DNA of 64,000 bases from an uncultured Granulosicoccaceae bacterium (lineage in GTDB: Bacteria > Pseudomonadota > Gammaproteobacteria > Granulosicoccales > Granulosicoccaceae), in contig CALAJN010000009.1 in assembly GCA_937922675.1 (NCBI GenBank), positions 235,687 through 299,686 on the forward strand, in the 5' to 3' direction. Both the position numbers and the translations under genes were made by a program. This document shows positions 23,197 through 64,000 of the stretch, in pieces; the first letter of the stretch is position 1; every line of letters begins with the position of its first letter. The notes beneath the pieces were generated by a model. That model was not told the origin of the DNA. It did not search any database and saw nothing but the letters and a program-made list of their open reading frames with translations.

Positions 23197-24210
23197 TCAA
23201 CGGATAAAAAAGCCCGGGTCGGTCGCGGTACCGCGATGACGAACCTCCAGGTGCAAGTGCGGGCCAGTGGATCGACCACTGGAACCCAGCGTCGCAATGA
23301 TCTCACCCTTGCGCACCCGATCGCCAGGCCGCACCAACGTGACGTCATTATGAGCATAACGGGTACTGAAATCGCCTGCGTGTTCAAGCTCGACCAGAAG
23401 CCCGTAACCGCCGTTGCGGCCAGACCAGGTAACCACACCGTCAGCGATGGCCATGATGGGCTCACCCACCTCGCCCACAAAATCGAGCCCATGATGCATG
23501 ACCCGCCGTCCCGTCAACGGATCGACGCGCCTGCCAAACCCCGAGCTCATGCTGCCAACGGCGAGCGGCCTGCCCGATAGCCGGCGATCAAACACCCGGC
23601 GGCGTTCCAGATAAATGCTTTGCAAGGCGTTCACCTGTTCAATCATGGGGTCCAGACGCGCAAACAGAACAGCCAGCGCATCAGGTGACGTGGGATCGAG
23701 GCGAGAGAGGGGCTCGCCATCCCCGGTTTTCCCGTCGATTTCAAAATCCAGATCAAATTCGCCCTCATCCTCGATTTCGGCGACCTCCGCCAGTCGCTGG
23801 AAAAGGACTCGCAAGCGCAGCATTTCAGCCTTCAATTGACCAATCTGCTGTGCCTGACCGCTTGCCGGACTTGAGCCATTGACAGCCCCTGTGGCCAAGG
23901 CGGAGGTAGGGGCGGAGGTAGGGGCGGAGGCAGGGTCGGAGGCCGTCGCAGGCTGATCCTGCAAGGGGTCAGTTGTCGTGAAGCTTGCGTCCACGACCCA
24001 CATCTCGACAGGCTGAGTGCGACCGACGAACCAGCCACAGGCCACAGCAGCGATGACCAGTATGGCAACAAGAATCAGCTCAAGCGCATGACCGGACTCC
24101 CGAGTACGCCCATGAGCACTCCCGCTCGCTGCCTGCGGTTTTGAGCCGCTTCGGCCACTGTTGTCGGTAGACTTGCTATGCACCTGCGGTTCGCTCTTGG
24201 ACACGGTCAT
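23197..24210 (-). CDS. M23-family peptidoglycan endopeptidase-like protein
   Basis: [23 protein letters not shown]...[10 protein letters not shown] LytM/M23 motifs; single N-terminal TM; AAGGA SD. Confidence 0.92.
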
Positions 24211-29025: not shown

Positions 29026-29961
29026 TCACAGGCCACGTGCTCCAGCTAGTGAAAATCCGTCGCTGTAGCGCATATCAAAGGTCACGGGGTCAGATTTCAG
29101 GGACTCAGCGAAGCGCGGGTAGACATCGACAAAGCGGCCCAGACGTCGCTCGTGATCCTCGTACCCCAGGCGCAGGGTCACGTTGCCATCAAGTTCAATC
29201 GTTTGAGACAGGCGCGCATCTTCAACCAGACCTGTCACTCGCAAACCCAGGGCACCCAGCGCCTCGGAGTAGCGGCGGTAGTCATCAAGCACAGCGGAGT
29301 GCCTCCCGGCATCTCCACGTAGCTCAGGCAAGGACGCAAATACACTCTGCCACTCGGTATAGCGAACATCGTCGCGCGACAGCTGCGGGGGTTGAAACAA
29401 TTCGAGCCTCTTGCTGACAAGGCCATCGTCATTCCAGCGCGCTGCCGGTTCGTGTTCTTCCACAGTGACCTTGACACGGCCCGGCCACTCTCTTGCAATG
29501 CGCGCTTCGGCAACCCAGGGCAGGGATTCCACAGCACTGCGCAGTGCCTCGATATCGAGGGTGTAGAAACCTTGTCCGGTAAAAACCTCCACCTTGGACT
29601 GCAGCACACTACGGTCAGTGAAGTCCAGCGTGCCAAGCACATCAACATTGGATACCGGGAAACGCGCAGGGTCAGACAAGGCTTTCCATAGTGCCAGCGC
29701 TGCCGCGAGTACACATAAAACACCCACGGCACCAATCACCCAACGCGTTGTGGCAGAGATACGGGGCACGGCGACTGGCAAAACCGATGTCTTACGCACA
29801 GTGCCTGCACGCCCAACAGCAGAACTCGGCCGTCGCGCTGATCTGACACTCGATACCTCAGGCAACGGTAGATCCGACCGTCGCGCACCACGGTGCGACG
29901 CACTGCTACGTTTGTGACGGCGCTGATCACGATCGAGTACCTGCGAACTCATACAGGACAC
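29026..29961 (-). CDS. ftsQ: cell division protein FtsQ
   Basis: Single TM, POTRA/FtsQ domain (SLPWVAEARIAREWPGRVKVTVEEHEPAARW); gene order. Confidence 0.93.
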   Translation of the reverse strand: MSCMSSQVLDRDQRRHKRSSASHRGARRSDLPLPEVSSVRSARRPSSAVGRAGTVRKTSVLPVAVPRISATTRWVIGAVGVLCVLAAALALWKALSDPARFPVSNVDVLGTLDFTDRSVLQSKVEVFTGQGFYTLDIEALRSAVESLPWVAEARIAREWPGRVKVTVEEHEPAARWNDDGLVSKRLELFQPPQLSRDDVRYTEWQSVFASLPELRGDAGRHSAVLDDYRRYSEALGALGLRVTGLVEDARLSQTIELDGNVTLRLGYEDHERRLGRFVDVYPRFAESLKSDPVTFDMRYSDGFSLAGARGL

Positions 29962-31028
29962 TCCTCGGATGCTGTATCACGAGCTACCACGCGTTGCGCG
30001 AGTGTTTCAGACAATCGTGCAACGCTTGAAGACGAACTGGCCAGAATAGCCAGACACAGGCTTGTAAAATCGATTCCTGCGCACGTCGCTGCCATTGGCA
30101 TAAGACTGTGACTTGTCATACCCGGTGCGGTATTGCATTCGATGAACTGAGGCTCACCTGCTGCATCGAGCATAAAGTCCACACGCCCCCACCCTTGGCA
30201 ACCGAGTGCCTGAAACACTTGCAGCGCATAGGCGGACAGGCGTCCCGCCGTGGCGGCCGGGATATTAGCCGGGCATTCATATTCGGTATTGTCGAGCAGG
30301 TACTTGGCGTCATAGTCATAGATGCCGCCTGCCGCACGCATGGTAATCAGAGGCAGTGAAGTCACTCCATGACCTGGCACATCGAGCACGGCCGCCGTGA
30401 CCTCCAGACCTGGCATAAACGCCTCGATGAGGACATCACCAAAGCGATTGGCTTCAGTCCATGCAGATTCCAGATCGGCAGCTTCGTGCACAACACTAAC
30501 GCCAATACTTGAACCCTCACTCACCGGCTTGACTACGACCGAACCGGCCATACGCTCATACGCCTCACGGGCTTCACTGAATTGACAGGTGCGCTCTGCG
30601 AGGGGTGTTGGCACCCCGGCCACCTGACATAACTGCTTGGCTCGAACCTTGTCCATTGCCAAGGCTGACCCCAGAATTCCGGTGCCAGTGTAAGGGATAC
30701 CCGCTAGTTCGAGTGCAGCCTGAACTGTACCGTCCTCACCACCCCGACCGTGCAGAATCAAAAAGGCACGATCAAACCTGCCACTGACCAGAACTTCGCC
30801 GACGTCACGACCTGCATCAACGGCGTGCGCATCAACACCGGCGCCAACGAGCGCATCGAGCACCTGTTGTCCACTCATCAAGGACACGTCACGCTCGGCG
30901 GACCAGCCACCCATGACGACAGCCACCTTGCCAAAGGAAGTCGGCGGTGCCATGCGAGCAATAGCGTCGCTGTCAATGGTGGCGGTGGCGGTGGCGGTGG
31001 CGGTGGCGGGTGACATCAGCTCAGGCAT
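29949..31028 (-). CDS. ddl: D-alanine-D-alanine ligase
   Basis: ATP-grasp; [41 protein letters not shown]; start ([11 protein letters not shown]...) overlaps the murC stop. Confidence 0.96.
30978..31007 (-). repeat. 5 x 6-bp tandem repeat (GGTGGC)n inside the 5' end of ddl, encoding (Ala-Thr)n
   Basis: ggtggcggtggcggtggcggtggcggtggc on the + strand; Ddl N-terminus [17 protein letters not shown]. Confidence 0.9.
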
Positions 31029-32472
31029 TGACAACACCCTCTGCTGCAAACAGTGCTGGTAGTGAGCGTGCCAGCGCACCTACACTTCCTGCCCCGAGTG
31101 TCAGCACGATATCACCGTCCTCAATCACTCTGGCGAGCTGCTCCGGAACGTCTTCAATCGACTCGACAAACACCGGGTCGGCCGCTCCTCGAGCACGGAT
31201 GGCACGCGCAAGTGCACGCCCGTCGGCACCATTGATACGTGTCTCGCCTGCGGCATAGACCTCGCTGAGGACCAACAAATCAGGTGTTGAGAGCACATCA
31301 GCGAAGTCATCAAACAGGTCGCGTGTTCGCGTGTAGCGATGCGGCTGAAATACAACCAACAAGCGCCTGTCCGACCATCCTCCGCGAATAGCGGCAAGCG
31401 TTGCCGCCACCTCGGTCGGATGGTGCCCATAGTCGTCCAGCAGCGTCGCCTGCTTTCCATCTACATGCAGCGTACCCAGAGCTTGAGCTCGTCGGCCGAT
31501 ACCTGCAAAACGCGATAGTGCCCGCTTACCTGCCTTGACATCAACGCCGAGCTCAAGCGCAACAGTAATGGCAGCCAGAGCATTGAGTACATTGTGACGG
31601 CCTGGCATGTTGAGCACGATGTCGCTTATCACCGAAGTCACATCGCCGGTGTCGATGATCACATCGAAACGCATGCGCATCCCTTCCTGGGTCACGTTGG
31701 TAGCGCGCACGTCAGCGAGATCGTCAAACCCGTAAGTGCGCACAGGTCGCGCTACCCGTGGCAATACCTCACGAATGTTATCGTCATCGAGACAGACAAT
31801 GGCGAGGCCATAAAAAGGCAGGTGCAGCAGGAAATCAACAAAGGTCTGCTTGAGCTTCTCAAAGTCCCCGTCATAGGTAGACAGGTGATCAGCATCAATG
31901 TTGGTGACGATCGCCATGACCGGCTGCAGGTGCAAAAAGGACGCATCACTTTCATCAGCCTCGGCGACCAGCCACTCGCTCTCGCCAAGGTAGGCATTGG
32001 ACGATGAACTGGTGAGCTGACCACCGATCACATAGGTCGGGTCCATCCCGCCTTCGGTCAGAAGACTCGCCACCAGACTCGTGGTCGTTGTCTTGCCATG
32101 TGTGCCGGCAACCGCAATGCCCTGCTGGAAGCGAAACAGCTCAGCCAGCATCTCAGCACGTCGCACTACCGGCACACCCAGCTCCCGAGCGCGTACAAGC
32201 TCGCTGTTATCCTCTGGCACCGCGGTAGAGATCACCACCACATCGGCGTCTTCAACCTGACTGGCTGTATGCCCCTGATACACGGTGACACCGAGCCCGA
32301 CAAGACGTGCTGTCAAGGCATTGCTGCCAAGATCGGAGCCTGTGACCCGAAACCCAAGCTTGTGCATCACCTCAGCGATGCCCCCCATACCGACACCACC
32401 GATGCCGATGAAGTGCATGCCGCGCACACGCCGCATCTGGCTCTTGACCACCGGAGACAGGTTAATGGCCAT
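31021..32472 (-). CDS. murC: UDP-N-acetylmuramate-L-alanine ligase
   Basis: [32 protein letters not shown]. Confidence 0.97.
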
Positions 32473-33710
32473 CAGCGCAATCCCCCGAGCTGATGTTGCC
32501 GCCGGTCAACCGAGTCACCACTGGATTGAGCTTGCGATGTCGTCGATGCTGAATCCGCTACTGCTCCTGCTGCATCACATAACGCATCAGCGACACGCGC
32601 CGCAGCCCCAGGCACGAAGCGCTCATGGGCGGCACGAGCCATTGCATCGAGCCGATCAGGGTCACGCAGCAATTGCTCGACCTCGAACGCAAGCGACCTG
32701 GCATCAAGCTGATCTTCCGGCAACAAGACAGCTGCACCCACCGACACCAGCCAGTTGGCATTCGCAGTTTGATGATCATCAACCGCATACGGAAACGGCA
32801 CCAGCAAGGCAGGTGTGCCCGAAGCTGCCAGTTCGGTCACGGTCATCGCACCGGCACGACTGATCACAAGATCAGCCTTGCTGTAGGCGGTGGCCATATC
32901 GTCAACAAAATCCTCTACGCAAACACTGACCTTGTGGGTGGCCGCCAGCGCCTTGAGATAGCGCTCTCTGGTAGCACCACCACGCCCTGCACCCGCTTGA
33001 TGAAAGACCTCAATAGACCCGACCTTGTCGCTCGCCAGACTGTCATCGACTCGCAAGGCTTTCATCGCTTCAGGCAGCAGGCGGTTCAAACACTCAGCCC
33101 CGCGACTACCTCCGATCACAAGCACTCGTAAAGGATCGCCCTTTTGTCTGATTCTTGTCGTCCCGGCAACTATTCCTGCAGGCACCGGATTACCCACTGT
33201 TTCAGCAGATCGAGAAGCCGGGAACACATCAGGGAAGGCACTGAATACTCGCGTGGCAAAACGCGCCAGCCAGGCGTTGGTCATGCCGGCTACGGCATTC
33301 TGCTCGTGCAGAACCAGAGGAATGCGCAGCATCAAGGCAGCCAGGGCAACAGGGCCAGAGACAAATCCGCCCATGCCCAATACTGCGCTGACACGCTCGC
33401 TCCGGAGCAGGACGATGGACTGCACGATCGCTCGCAATAAACGCAACGGTCCAAGCAGCGTATCCAAGACGCTCTGGCCGCGCAGCCCGCGTATATCGAT
33501 CAGTCGCATGGGAATACCCGCGGTTGGCACCATGCGTGACTCAAGACCTTGCCGAGTACCGGCCCACAACACGGGCACCTGACGCTCGCGCAAGGTGTTG
33601 GCAACGGCAAGCGCAGGCACCACATGCCCTCCTGTGCCACCCGCAGCAATGAGTACGGGACGACCTTCTGTCATGCCAGATCTCATACCAGATCTCATAC
33701 CAGCTCTCAT
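32472..33710 (-). CDS. murG: UDP-GlcNAc:lipid I GlcNAc transferase MurG
   Basis: [49 protein letters not shown]. Confidence 0.97.
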
Positions 33711-33719
33711 ACCAGGCTC
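33672..33719 (-). repeat. 12-bp tandem repeat across the ftsW stop / murG start, carrying four in-frame ATGA starts
   Basis: CAT (ATG on minus) at 33672-74, 33684-86, 33696-98 and 33708-10, exactly 12 bp apart; MurG N-terminus [17 protein letters not shown]. Confidence 0.9.
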
Positions 33720-59713: not shown

Positions 59714-60028
59714 TCAGGCAAGCTGTGGCTGCAATAATTCAGTGACCTGACACACCTCGGCGAGCTGCAGCAGACCCGTCGGCACTCCGGCGAAGGTAAC
59801 CTTGTGTTTGCTGCGGCGGGCTACTGCTAGCCACTCGATCAAAATAGCCAGCCCCACGCTATTGCTGTGCGACACGCCGGACAGGTCAACGGTGAGGTTC
59901 CGAGTCGCCTCTATGGCTACTCGGCCACAGTCCAGCACGGCACCACCATTGTCAAAATCGATCTCACCCGCCACGGTCAGCGAGCTGCCTTCATGTCGGC
60001 AAGTCAAGTTGGTGGCATTTGGACTCAT
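59714..60028 (-). CDS. mlaB: STAS-domain protein MlaB
   Basis: STAS fold sequence (LTVDLSGVSHSNSVGLAILIEWL), downstream of mlaC. Confidence 0.88.
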   Translation of the reverse strand: MSPNATNLTCRHEGSSLTVAGEIDFDNGGAVLDCGRVAIEATRNLTVDLSGVSHSNSVGLAILIEWLAVARRSKHKVTFAGVPTGLLQLAEVCQVTELLQPQLA

Positions 60029-60768
60029 GACTTTCTGGCATTACGCTCTTCAAGCGTCTTGAGCAGGCCTGCAATACCGCCCTTGCTGATCTCGTTGGAG
60101 AACGCGCTGCGGTAACTGGTTACCAGGCTGATACCGTTGACTTCGATGTCATAGATCTTCCAGCCGCCCTTGTCGCGCAACTTGTAGATAACCGGCACGT
60201 CGCCGGCCCCACCGGATTGATTGAATTCGGAGCGAACCACAGCTCGGTCTTCACGGCGCTCTGGGCGAAACGGCAGAAACGAGATCGTCTGACCGCGGTA
60301 TTCCGAAAGCGCTCCTGAGTAAGTGTTCATCAACAGTTTCTTGAACTGCGTCACCAGCTCCGGCTTCTGCGCAGCATCCGCTCGTCGCCAGAATTTTCCA
60401 ACCGCAAGCTTGGTCATCGTGCCAAAGTCAACATGCGGAGTAATGATTTCGTCAACACGTTGCGCAAGCAACTCCGGGTCATTGGCGAGCGCATCGCCCT
60501 CTGCCTCAAGTACCTGAATGGCCTCATTGACAGCATCCTCGACCAACGATTGGGCCGGATGCTCCTGCGCCGCCGCACCTTGTGCAAAGGACAGCATCAT
60601 CAGGGCAATTGCCGCGATGATTGTCGCTATCGGTGCGCTTAGCGGTGTGCGGGTTCGTGCCATGGGGGAGACGCTCATCGAGTCTGCTCCTACTTTAAGG
60701 TATGTGTGAGACTGCATCGGACCGTTGGCGTTCCTTGTCTGACTGTTTTTGTTGCCCAGGTCATTCAA
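60025..60768 (-). CDS. mlaC: periplasmic phospholipid-binding protein MlaC
   Basis: ITPHVDFGTMTKLAVGKFWRRA, KGGWKIYDIEVNGISLVTSYRSAF. Confidence 0.95.
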   Translation of the reverse strand: MNDLGNKNSQTRNANGPMQSHTYLKVGADSMSVSPMARTRTPLSAPIATIIAAIALMMLSFAQGAAAQEHPAQSLVEDAVNEAIQVLEAEGDALANDPELLAQRVDEIITPHVDFGTMTKLAVGKFWRRADAAQKPELVTQFKKLLMNTYSGALSEYRGQTISFLPFRPERREDRAVVRSEFNQSGGAGDVPVIYKLRDKGGWKIYDIEVNGISLVTSYRSAFSNEISKGGIAGLLKTLEERNARKS

Positions 60769-60786
60769 TTCGCGACCCAGGTCGCC

Positions 60787-61251
60787 CTATTCTGCGCCCG
60801 ACCGGCTGAACAGTACCTGACCAATCAGTCGCTCAAGCACTATTGCAGATTGCGTCAGCGTAATCTCATCACCGTCGATCAGCGCGATGTCCTCCGCGCC
60901 AGCCTCCAGCCCGATGTATTGCTCGCCGAGCAAACCGGCGGTGTAGATGCTCGCTGTGGTGTCTTCAGGAAAAGCATCCACAAACTCGGCTTCCACCTTC
61001 AGCGTCACCTTGGCTGCAAAGTCTTCCGGGATGTAGGCAATCGACTCCACCTGTCCCACGCGCACGCCACTGGCTGAAACCGGTGCCCCGGACTTCAAAC
61101 CGCCGACGTTTTCAAATTCGGCAACAAGGGTGTATCCGCCGCTGGAACCCAGCCCAGTCAAATTGCTGACACGCATGGCCAGAAACAACATGGCCCCAAG
61201 AAACAACAGCATGAAGAGGCCGACGAGGATTTCGGTTAATCGTGAGTTCAT
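60787..61251 (-). CDS. mlaD: MCE-family phospholipid transport protein MlaD
   Basis: TLVAEFENVGGLKSGAPVSASGVRVGQVESI MCE domain, GLLGEQYIGLEAG. Confidence 0.95.
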   Translation of the reverse strand: MNSRLTEILVGLFMLLFLGAMLFLAMRVSNLTGLGSSGGYTLVAEFENVGGLKSGAPVSASGVRVGQVESIAYIPEDFAAKVTLKVEAEFVDAFPEDTTASIYTAGLLGEQYIGLEAGAEDIALIDGDEITLTQSAIVLERLIGQVLFSRSGAE

Positions 61252-61260
61252 TGAACTGCC

Positions 61261-62031
61261 CTAGAACATGATTGCCGTGAGCACGAAATCGAGTCCGAGC
61301 ACAGCGAGAGAGGAATAAACAACGGTGCGCGTGGTAGCGGCGCTGACACCTTCGGAGGTAGGTATGCAATCGGTACCCTCGAAAATCGCGATCCAGCTAA
61401 CCACAAAGCCGAAGACGCAGGCCTTGATCAAACCCTGCACAACATCATCCAGAAAGGCTACCGAGCTCTGCATATTTGACCAGTAGGCGCCGGCGTCGAC
61501 GCCAAGTACCTCGACGCCGACCAGATACCCACCGACAACGCCCACTGCGCTGAACATGGCGGCCAACATGGGCAGAGCCAGAAATCCAGCAAAAAAGCGT
61601 GGCGCGTAGACACGCTTGAACGGATCCACGGCCATCATCTCAAGACCCGACAGCTGCTCTGTTGCTTTCATCAAGCCGATTTCTGCGGTCATGGCAGATC
61701 CAGCACGGCCGGCAAACAGCAGGCCTGTGACTACCGGCCCGAGTTCACGCACCAAGGTCAGAGCGACAGCTTGACCCAACGCAGCCTCGGCACCAAAACC
61801 CTCGAGCAGGTAATACCCCTGAAGCGCCAGCACCATACCAACGAACAGTCCTGATACCAGCACGATTGACAGGGTCATTACGCCAACAGCGTGAAGCTGA
61901 CGCACCAGCAACCCAAAGCGTGGAATCAACGACCCTATCGCACCTAGGGTTCGCGCCAGAAACAGATGAGCGCGACCCAGGCGCTCGAGAACATCGAGCC
62001 AGAATCGGCCGAAGCGCGCAACAAAATCCAT
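61261..62031 (-). CDS. mlaE: phospholipid ABC permease MlaE
   Basis: AVALTLVRELGPVVTGLLFAGRAGSAMTAEIGLMKATEQLSGLEMMAVDP. Confidence 0.95.
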   Translation of the reverse strand: MDFVARFGRFWLDVLERLGRAHLFLARTLGAIGSLIPRFGLLVRQLHAVGVMTLSIVLVSGLFVGMVLALQGYYLLEGFGAEAALGQAVALTLVRELGPVVTGLLFAGRAGSAMTAEIGLMKATEQLSGLEMMAVDPFKRVYAPRFFAGFLALPMLAAMFSAVGVVGGYLVGVEVLGVDAGAYWSNMQSSVAFLDDVVQGLIKACVFGFVVSWIAIFEGTDCIPTSEGVSAATTRTVVYSSLAVLGLDFVLTAIMF

Positions 62032-62867
62032 CAGCGGCGATCCCCGGAGAGCAGTTCTTCAGCATAGTCGGGAGCGCTCAGTTGAAACGGCACAGGCCCA
62101 TCCGGACTGCCGCTCAAGAACTGGCGCGTCCACGCTGATTCACTGTTTTTGAGTTCGTCGGGCGTGCCGGTCTCGACCACCACACCTTCAGAGATGATCA
62201 CGACGTAATCGGATATCGACAAAGCTTCAGCCAGGTCATGCGACACCATAAGCGAGGTCAGCCCCAGCGCCTGATTAACGGTTCGGATCAGGGTCAACAG
62301 CACACCCATGGAAATCGGGTCCTGTCCGGTAAAAGGCTCGTCGTACATGATCATCATCGGGTCAAACACGAGCGCACGAGCCAAGGCCGCGCGGCGTGCC
62401 ATCCCGCCCGAGAGCTCAGCCGGGTAGAGATCACGTGCACCACGGAGCCCAACAGCATGCAGTCTCATCAACACCAGATGAGAGATCAGTGACTCGGGCA
62501 GAGATGTGTGCTCACGCAACGGGAAAGCCACATTCTCGAACACGCTCAGATCGGTCAACAACGCGCCGGACTGAAACAGCATGCCCATGCGCTTGCGCAA
62601 TGCATACAGGTCACGACGGCTCAGTCGCGCAACGTCTTGCCCATCAACAGAGACCGTCCCTCTCAGTGGCTTCAACTGGCCGCCAATCATCTTGAGCAAG
62701 GTAGTCTTGCCGGTACCGGAGGGCCCGAGAATGGTGGTCACCTGCCCGCGCGGCACATCGAAGTCGAGACCACGAAATATTGGCTTCGAGCCACGCGTGA
62801 AATGCAGATCGCGCACACACACGAGTGGATCATCCACCACGTTTGTCTTGTCCGACATCGAATTCAT
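62031..62867 (-). CDS. mlaF: phospholipid ABC ATPase MlaF
   Basis: GPSGTGKTTLLKMIGG Walker A, LSGGMARRAALARAL signature, MIMYDEPFTGQDP; start approximate. Confidence 0.94.
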   Translation of the reverse strand: MNSMSDKTNVVDDPLVCVRDLHFTRGSKPIFRGLDFDVPRGQVTTILGPSGTGKTTLLKMIGGQLKPLRGTVSVDGQDVARLSRRDLYALRKRMGMLFQSGALLTDLSVFENVAFPLREHTSLPESLISHLVLMRLHAVGLRGARDLYPAELSGGMARRAALARALVFDPMMIMYDEPFTGQDPISMGVLLTLIRTVNQALGLTSLMVSHDLAEALSISDYVVIISEGVVVETGTPDELKNSESAWTRQFLSGSPDGPVPFQLSAPDYAEELLSGDRR

Positions 62868-63132
62868 GAAAAGACTCTTCGCACCATCCGTACCAGCCAG
62901 TGTCTCAATAGCGTCCACATAACCCCAAGACCAGCGGCGCCAAAACCCGGTTACGCGCACCTTGCGCCACCCGTACCACGAACGGTACTCGATAACACTT
63001 GCGACTGCCTACTCTCACTCACATATGCCCGCGCAAGGCCTGCGACGAAAAATTGTCACCTCCATGGCGCTCCCGTGGACACGGCGGTAGATCGACTACA
63101 CTTTGCGCGCCCTGCCGAACACGACCTGACAC

Positions 63133-64000
63133 ATGAAGCGACTGACGTCAGCACTACTTTGCCTGCTGCTCACAACTGCTTGTGCGACCAACACCCCTAC
63201 AGGTCCTGTACACGACCCCTACGAAGGCTTCAATCGCGGCGTCTATCGATTCAACGATGCCATTGATCGGACCGTGCTCGTACCGGTCGCCAGAGGCTAT
63301 CGCTATGTCACGCCGGATTTTCTTGAGCTCGGTATCGGCAATTTTTTCTCCAATATTGGTGATGTCACAGTAGCGGCCAATGGCCTGCTCCAAGGAAAGT
63401 TCAAGCAGGCCGCCTCGGACACCGCACGCGTGTTTGTCAACACAACCGCAGGTATCGGGGGCTTCTTCGATGCGGGAACACGCATGGGGCTGGAGAAACA
63501 CAACGAGAGCTTTGGGCAGACCCTGGGCTACTGGGGGGTCGGCGAAGGTCCGTTTCTGATGCTCCCCTTGTTGGGACCAAACAATACGCGCAGCGCGACC
63601 GGGCTCATACCGGACCGCACGGTGTTGTCTGCCAAGTGGTGGCTTCTTGATGACGGCCCGACAAATCTTGGACTGACCGTGGCAGAGATCATATCGATCA
63701 GAGCGCGTTTGCTCTCGGCCGGCAATCTGCTCAACAGCGCGGCACTTGACCCGTATTTGCTGTTACGTGATTTCTGGGTCCAGCAACACCGACGTCTGAC
63801 GGTTGATGGCAAAGTGCCCGTCGCTATCGGCACGCCAGACAGCTCAGACGGCTTCTACGGCGACGATGAGCTCGATGAGCTCGATGAGCTCGATGAGCTC
63901 GATGAACTCGATGAACTCGATGAACTCGATGAACTCGATGAACTCGATGAACTCGATGAACTCGATGAACTCGATGAACTCGATGAACTCGATGAACTCG
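63133..64000 (+). CDS. mlaA: phospholipid-removing OM lipoprotein MlaA (VacJ) with (DEL)n C-terminal tail; truncated by window edge
   Basis: Manual translation MKRLTSALLCLLLTTACATNTPTGPVHDPYEGFNRGVYRFNDAID...; open to the window end, so absent from the ORF track. Confidence 0.92.
   Translation, partial: MKRLTSALLCLLLTTACATNTPTGPVHDPYEGFNRGVYRFNDAIDRTVLVPVARGYRYVTPDFLELGIGNFFSNIGDVTVAANGLLQGKFKQAASDTARVFVNTTAGIGGFFDAGTRMGLEKHNESFGQTLGYWGVGEGPFLMLPLLGPNNTRSATGLIPDRTVLSAKWWLLDDGPTNLGLTVAEIISIRARLLSAGNLLNSAALDPYLLLRDFWVQQHRRLTVDGKVPVAIGTPDSSDGFYGDDELDELDELDELDELDELDELDELDELDELDELDELDELDELDEL
63865..64000 (+). repeat. 9-bp tandem repeat: 4 x GATGAGCTC then at least 11 x GATGAACTC, in frame as Asp-Glu-Leu
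   Basis: Direct reading of 63865-64000; continues past the window edge. Confidence 0.97.

Follow-up and report, generated by a model that had tools for sequence, protein, structure and literature searches.

A Tandem Asp-Glu-Leu Array at the C-Terminus of MlaA in a Granulosicoccus Relative: A Candidate Multiplied Form of the MlaC-Docking Tail

Introduction

The window, that is, the whole stretch of 64,000 nucleotides analyzed here, ends inside an mlaA gene whose 3′ portion consists of a 9-bp tandem repeat encoding Asp-Glu-Leu (DEL). This locus raises the question of whether the array is a genuine part of the MlaA protein and, if so, what such a tail might do. A literature search returned no description of repeat tails on MlaA/VacJ and nothing linking Granulosicoccus with MlaA. 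The question is of interest because the capture of apo-MlaC by MlaA and the direction of lipid flow in the Mla pathway are under active investigation.

Results

The mlaA Gene and Its Mla Neighbors

The mlaA gene occupies positions 63133–64000 on the plus strand and is open at the contig end. Its core (residues 1–244) includes a lipobox-like Cys17 and an MlaA domain at residues 27–220, which was matched by Pfam family PF04333 with a value of 2.9e-68 (229.8 bits; curated cut-off, 25). A sequence search matched the product to the solved MlaA chains 5nuo, 8i8r, and 5nuq, and the fold of the AlphaFold2 model matched 5nuo, 5nur, and 8i8r (TM-score about 0.8 by target length) as well as 8i8x. The first-pass annotation had named the gene mlaA, and this identification was supported by both the domain and the fold. 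The N-terminus is hydrophobic and contains LLLTTAC, in which the threonine at −3 departs from the lipobox consensus; LSAC or LAGC is found in relatives. The best named matches of the MlaA core were Granulosicoccus records, and on the basis of these matches the organism belongs with Granulosicoccus.

In the AlphaFold2 model, confidence is high for the core and low for both the linker and the tail, the latter being modeled as a long helix at residues 246–288 (pLDDT 56–62). The linker, which runs from the last core helix to the array (about residues 223–244; 63799–63864, plus strand), is predicted to be flexible: pLDDT values were 49–53 in the blocks spanning residues 231–250, and a 3-residue turn was the only stable element predicted from residue 224 to residue 245.

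A complete mlaFEDCB set (59714–62960, minus strand) adjoins mlaA divergently, in the same gene order as in E. coli. It comprises the ATPase gene mlaF (62031–62960; ABC_tran, PF00005, 2.7e-29), the permease gene mlaE (61261–62031; PF02405, 1.2e-72), mlaD (60787–61251; PF02470, 1.3e-22), mlaC (60025–60768; PF05494, 6.4e-51), and the STAS gene mlaB (59714–60028; STAS_2, PF13466, 1.6e-13). The mlaC product, the periplasmic shuttle, is the candidate partner of the tail.

Structure of the Array and Its Continuation on a Second Contig

The array lies in frame with the open reading frame starting at 63133, as read from the ORF listing, and is composed of two blocks on the plus strand. The first (63865–63900) is (GATGAGCTC)x4, encoding (Asp-Glu-Leu)x4, and the second (63901–64000) is (GATGAACTC)x11 plus one base, encoding at least eleven further Asp-Glu-Leu units up to the contig end. 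Tandem Repeats Finder reported an array at 63864–64000 with a period of 9, 15.2 copies, and 99% matches; its score of 246 was the highest in the window. Direct reading and Tandem Repeats Finder agree on the two-block tail described in the first-pass annotation, and the block structure is consistent with its suggestion that a variant unit had spread recently.

Shorter repeats were also observed elsewhere in the window, both on the minus strand. A 12-bp repeat at 23899–23942 encodes an Ala-Ser-Ala-Pro-Thr-type stretch in an M23-like peptidase ORF (23197–24210; domain assigned by eye), and a GGTGGC hexamer repeat at 30978–31009 encodes ATATATATAT close to the N-terminal end of an ORF (29949–31079) resembling D-Ala-D-Ala ligase (family assigned by eye).

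The window edge coincides with the end of contig C9 (299,686 bp) in a genome of 20 contigs. In a whole-genome search, the repeat was present at just two sites, namely the end of C9 and, on the opposite strand, the end of C3. The minus strand of C3 (locus L011) reads CTC(GATGAACTC)x11 GGT TGA, and the stop is followed downstream by kdsD, lptC, lptA, and lptB, with rpoN further on. Since these are the only two repeat-bearing ends, and since relatives carry kdsD directly after mlaA on one contig, we infer that C9 and C3 join across the array. The stop codon sought past position 64000 would be the one on C3: the array there runs straight into GGT TGA with no interruption of the frame before the stop, so the MlaA frame would close normally with Gly-stop.

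When the C9 and C3 ends are combined, the protein has a minimum of 15 DEL units and a length of about 290 residues. The count of 15 is a lower bound because the assembly broke inside the array. About 100 bp of pure repeat stands at each contig end, which would fit a short-read graph failing at a repeat, and the actual number of units may exceed 15.

As had been proposed, the 9-bp unit preserves the reading frame, and the frames of both mlaA and kdsD are kept. Phase variation by frame switching, as at a simple-sequence contingency locus, was rejected on this ground.

Distribution in Granulosicoccus and the Family

The array is not peculiar to the present protein; it proved to be carried by nearly the whole genus. 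In a comparison based on one genome per species, in which the nearest relative (G003) was 76% identical in MlaA, 22 of the 25 genus genomes with mlaA carried 7 to 32 consecutive D-x-hydrophobic triplets. Of the other three, one has an array interrupted by a gap, and two have acidic tails lacking a DEL array. At loci L018 and L044, a run of N lies inside the array, and the apparent frame change past the gap was left uncounted. Pure DNA runs were found in several species (e.g., L017 and L028), and higher-order units of 18 residues in some, such as DELDELDELDRLDALDKA in L020.

Two tails (L026 and L029) stop at contig ends inside the array, which indicates that assemblies often break there. A tail of comparable kind is present in a one-contig genome (G023, locus L025), which is evidence that the tail is not an artefact.

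In the class as a whole, (DEL)4 was found in 4 of 369 genomes, every time at the 3′ end of mlaA, and one of the four (G091) belongs to another, unrelated family. Two Granulosicoccaceae loci (L077 and L081) were also observed to encode divergent MlaA homologues, 42–45% identical, with DEL arrays of 9–11 units and no adjacent kdsD. A different acidic expansion was seen in Candidatus Parabeggiatoa (L060), in which the MlaA tail is about 170 residues long and almost purely Asp/Glu.

Acidic MlaA Tails in E. coli and Across the Class

In the MG1655 sequence, MlaA ends with ...AIQDDLKDIDSE, its tail of roughly 25 residues (about 227–251) closing in IQDDLKDIDSE. This acidic tail is required for the recruitment and binding of MlaC: function or binding is impaired when the last 8–9 residues are truncated, when the charge is reversed at D243/D244 or at D247/E251, and by each of the substitutions I241N, L245N, and I248N (PMC10719372, PMC10245069). 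A GFP-tail fusion binds MlaC with a KD of 57 µM, about 9–14 tail residues suffice, and the linker has been proposed to let the tail reach nearly halfway across the periplasm (PMC10719372, PMC10245069). The positions of the tail residues were confirmed in the MG1655 sequence.

A survey of 84 MlaA tails, sampled across the class with, for the most part, a single representative per family, showed that 92% were net acidic. Hydrophobic residues three apart were enriched in these tails (86 against 55.8 ± 6.1, a value reached by 0 of 1000 shuffles), as was the pattern [DE]xh[DE]xh (38 against 10.4 ± 3.1). Other families also have tails with between one and five such units, e.g., LDEIDELDEIDELDALE in L190 and LDELDEMD in L230. 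The assumption of the first-pass annotation that known MlaA proteins extend little beyond the core was not upheld, as E. coli itself has the MlaC-binding tail and most tails of the class are acidic.

The tail described here resembles that of E. coli in belonging to the same protein, in its place after the core on a flexible linker, and in its acidic character with regularly spaced hydrophobic residues. Over six positions, the E. coli stretch D-D-L-K-D-I (D243-D244-L245-K246-D247-I248) agrees at five with the acidic-acidic-hydrophobic pattern of D-E-L-D-E-L. The two differ in copy number, with one motif in E. coli and 15 or more tandem units here, and in hydrophobic spacing: in E. coli, residues at i, i+4, and i+7 line a single helix face, and in the array the hydrophobic residue falls strictly at every third position. 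Moreover, MlaC binding was measured for the E. coli tail, whereas the DEL tail is known from its sequence.

Other gammaproteobacterial acidic tails (L190, L202, L214, and L230) have the same motif grammar and position, sometimes already repeated; in contrast to the array, they are short, with one to five D-x-hydrophobic units and no homogenized DNA array. Bacterial surface proteins can contain in-frame coding minisatellites, which likewise have a unit that is a multiple of three, homogenized blocks, and a copy number varying between species. Unlike them, the present array belongs to a lipid-transport lipoprotein and points into the periplasm, and its unit resembles a known docking motif.

Since the tails of the class share the motif and (DEL)4 always occurs at mlaA, the array appears to be an amplification of an MlaC-docking tail that is itself widespread.

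Helix Geometry and the MlaC Groove

The tail had been described as amphipathic, which was not confirmed for a long α-helix. Leucines placed every three residues point all round the helix axis, and their computed resultant over 18 residues was 0. Only adjacent i/i+3 leucine pairs of the repeat share a helix face, and the triad of the E. coli type (I241, L245, I248) is not reproduced. Because the DEL helix is not amphipathic and was predicted with low confidence, the bound tail may consist of short helical pieces.

On the MlaC side, E. coli K83-S84 and R90 align with R-R and K in the protein of this genome, and A75 and Q80 each align with K; the lysine numbered K84 in the published work is residue 83 of the MG1655 precursor. 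Basic residues of this patch type are common throughout the class. Across 62 genomes, the correlation between MlaC groove charge and tail acidity was weak at best (rho 0.24, p 0.057), and it was rho 0.29 (p 0.027) in the 59 genomes remaining without the three Granulosicoccus; 19 MlaC sequences that were unaligned under a simple filter were omitted from this test. Groove charge did not differ between motif-bearing and motif-free tails in the 62-genome set (p 0.97).

Discussion

Proposed Role of the Array

We consider it reasonably probable that the array is an expanded MlaC-recruiting tail of the E. coli type, in which tandem docking registers would provide a multivalent or longer-reaching bait for MlaC. 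This presupposes that the repeats bind MlaC and that additional copies add binding. An orientation of the tail toward MlaC, as suggested in the first-pass annotation, was judged its most likely role.

According to this proposal, the array would form the C-terminal, periplasm-facing tail of MlaA, and an ancestral short acidic-plus-hydrophobic motif would have been multiplied in tandem through 9-bp duplication in Granulosicoccus and its family. One MlaA molecule would probably display many equivalent or overlapping docking registers on a flexible linker. Such registers could increase the rate or reach of apo-MlaC capture, or allow more than one MlaC to be held. Copy number would drift through in-frame duplication and loss, with selection retaining Asp plus a hydrophobic residue in every triplet. 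Some observations weigh against the proposal: the weak relation between MlaC groove charge and tail acidity, the E. coli-type hydrophobic spacing that the DEL repeat does not reproduce, and the two genus genomes whose acidic tails lack a DEL array. A stronger form, in which MlaA serves as a multivalent landing strip where several MlaC molecules are held or queued and whose length is tuned by 9-bp copy-number change, is put forward only tentatively.

It is rather unlikely that only one or two units engage MlaC at any moment while the rest of the array acts as a spacer or negatively charged brush for reach, with copy number otherwise neutral. Such an arrangement would be in line with the 9–14 residues that are enough in E. 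coli (PMC10719372, PMC10245069), with the freedom of copy number to differ between species from 7 to 32 triplets, and with the extension into the periplasm already proposed for the E. coli linker. However, Asp and Leu are retained in nearly every unit, and a pure spacer needs no leucine at each third residue.

Selection on the Repeat Peptide

Differences between neighboring units were compared with neutral expectation at each codon position of the unit. The counts were taken over whole arrays, with units unfiltered by residue, and those within one array are not independent because duplicated units share descent. For Asp, 115 synonymous and 14 nonsynonymous differences were counted (neutral synonymous fraction 0.11–0.22); for Leu, 113 and 51 (0.33–0.44); and for the middle Glu, 53 and 95 (0.11–0.22). 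As the synonymous differences exceed neutral expectation, selection on the tail peptide is indicated, acting most on Asp and Leu.

These data bear on neutral slippage, by which the 9-bp unit would have grown by chance in a tolerant disordered tail and the function would reside in a single ancestral motif. Recent duplication is evident from the homogenized blocks one base apart and from the pure DNA runs in several species (L017, L028). However, the array has persisted across the genus and family while its units drifted synonymously, the same gene carries it in a second family, and arrays of the DEL peptide occur nowhere else in this genome; we regard slippage alone as improbable.

Overlap of mlaA and kdsD

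A point absent from the first-pass annotation is the overlap of mlaA with kdsD within the array. When read one base further on (63866–64000, plus strand), the units become ATG-AGC-TCG and ATG-AAC-TCG, encoding Met-Ser-Ser and Met-Asn-Ser, with an ATG in the kdsD frame in every unit. Contig C3 reads ATG AAC TCG GTT GAT CGC... into KdsD, and the ATG of its last unit, which lies 14 nt inside mlaA, is probably where kdsD starts. The kdsD gene (L011:13241–14326, minus strand) encodes an SIS and two CBS domains, as identified by domain search.

The array could accordingly be imagined to act at the DNA or RNA level, its repeated ATGs or translational coupling serving kdsD and tuning LPS precursor synthesis, and the ATG in every unit with the likely start in the last one would suit such a role. 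The 14-nt overlap is also present in the nearest relative (L013). In most other array-bearing relatives, however, kdsD starts past the mlaA stop, the corresponding array frame there gives no ATGs, and it is the peptide rather than the DNA unit that is conserved. This explanation is very unlikely, and regulation of kdsD was rejected as the main role of the array because most other relatives lack the overlap; for the same reason, the overlap looks like a local effect of the array abutting kdsD and not the reason for the array.

As at the proposed junction here, mlaFEDCB of E. coli adjoins kdsD-kdsC-lptC-lptA-lptB-rpoN; mlaA lies elsewhere in that genome. It was also observed that lptC comes directly after kdsD on C3 (L011:12599–14326) and that kdsC, which stands between them in E. 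coli, is absent from this site. A second tandem repeat with an ATG in each unit, resembling the mlaA/kdsD array, was noted at the ftsW/murG junction (33665–33715, minus strand), where 12-bp units of the GAGAGCTGGTAT-GAGATCTGGTAT type lie at the start of murG; the last Met of this repeat is probably the usual murG start.

Finally, a misassembled or inflated repeat is hardly credible: both contigs do stop in the array with their pure repeat ends, as expected from an unresolved short-read graph, but a contig ending in a repeat implies a real run at least about as long as that displayed, and comparable tails are read through into kdsD in G023, a genome on one contig, and in many further contigs, so that, exact copy number aside, an artefact is largely refuted as regards the existence of the array.

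Significance

An acidic-hydrophobic tail is widespread among the MlaA proteins of the class; from E. coli it was known as a single weak docking motif (KD 57 µM). While that single motif was already established, what is new is the known docking tail in multiplied form, conserved in one lineage. With the motif multiplied as many as dozens of times and its chemistry maintained by selection, this lineage provides a natural dosage series for measuring what the tail contributes through valency, reach, and on-rate. If MlaA does act as a landing strip for MlaC, the capacity for lipid retrieval could evolve through repeat number.
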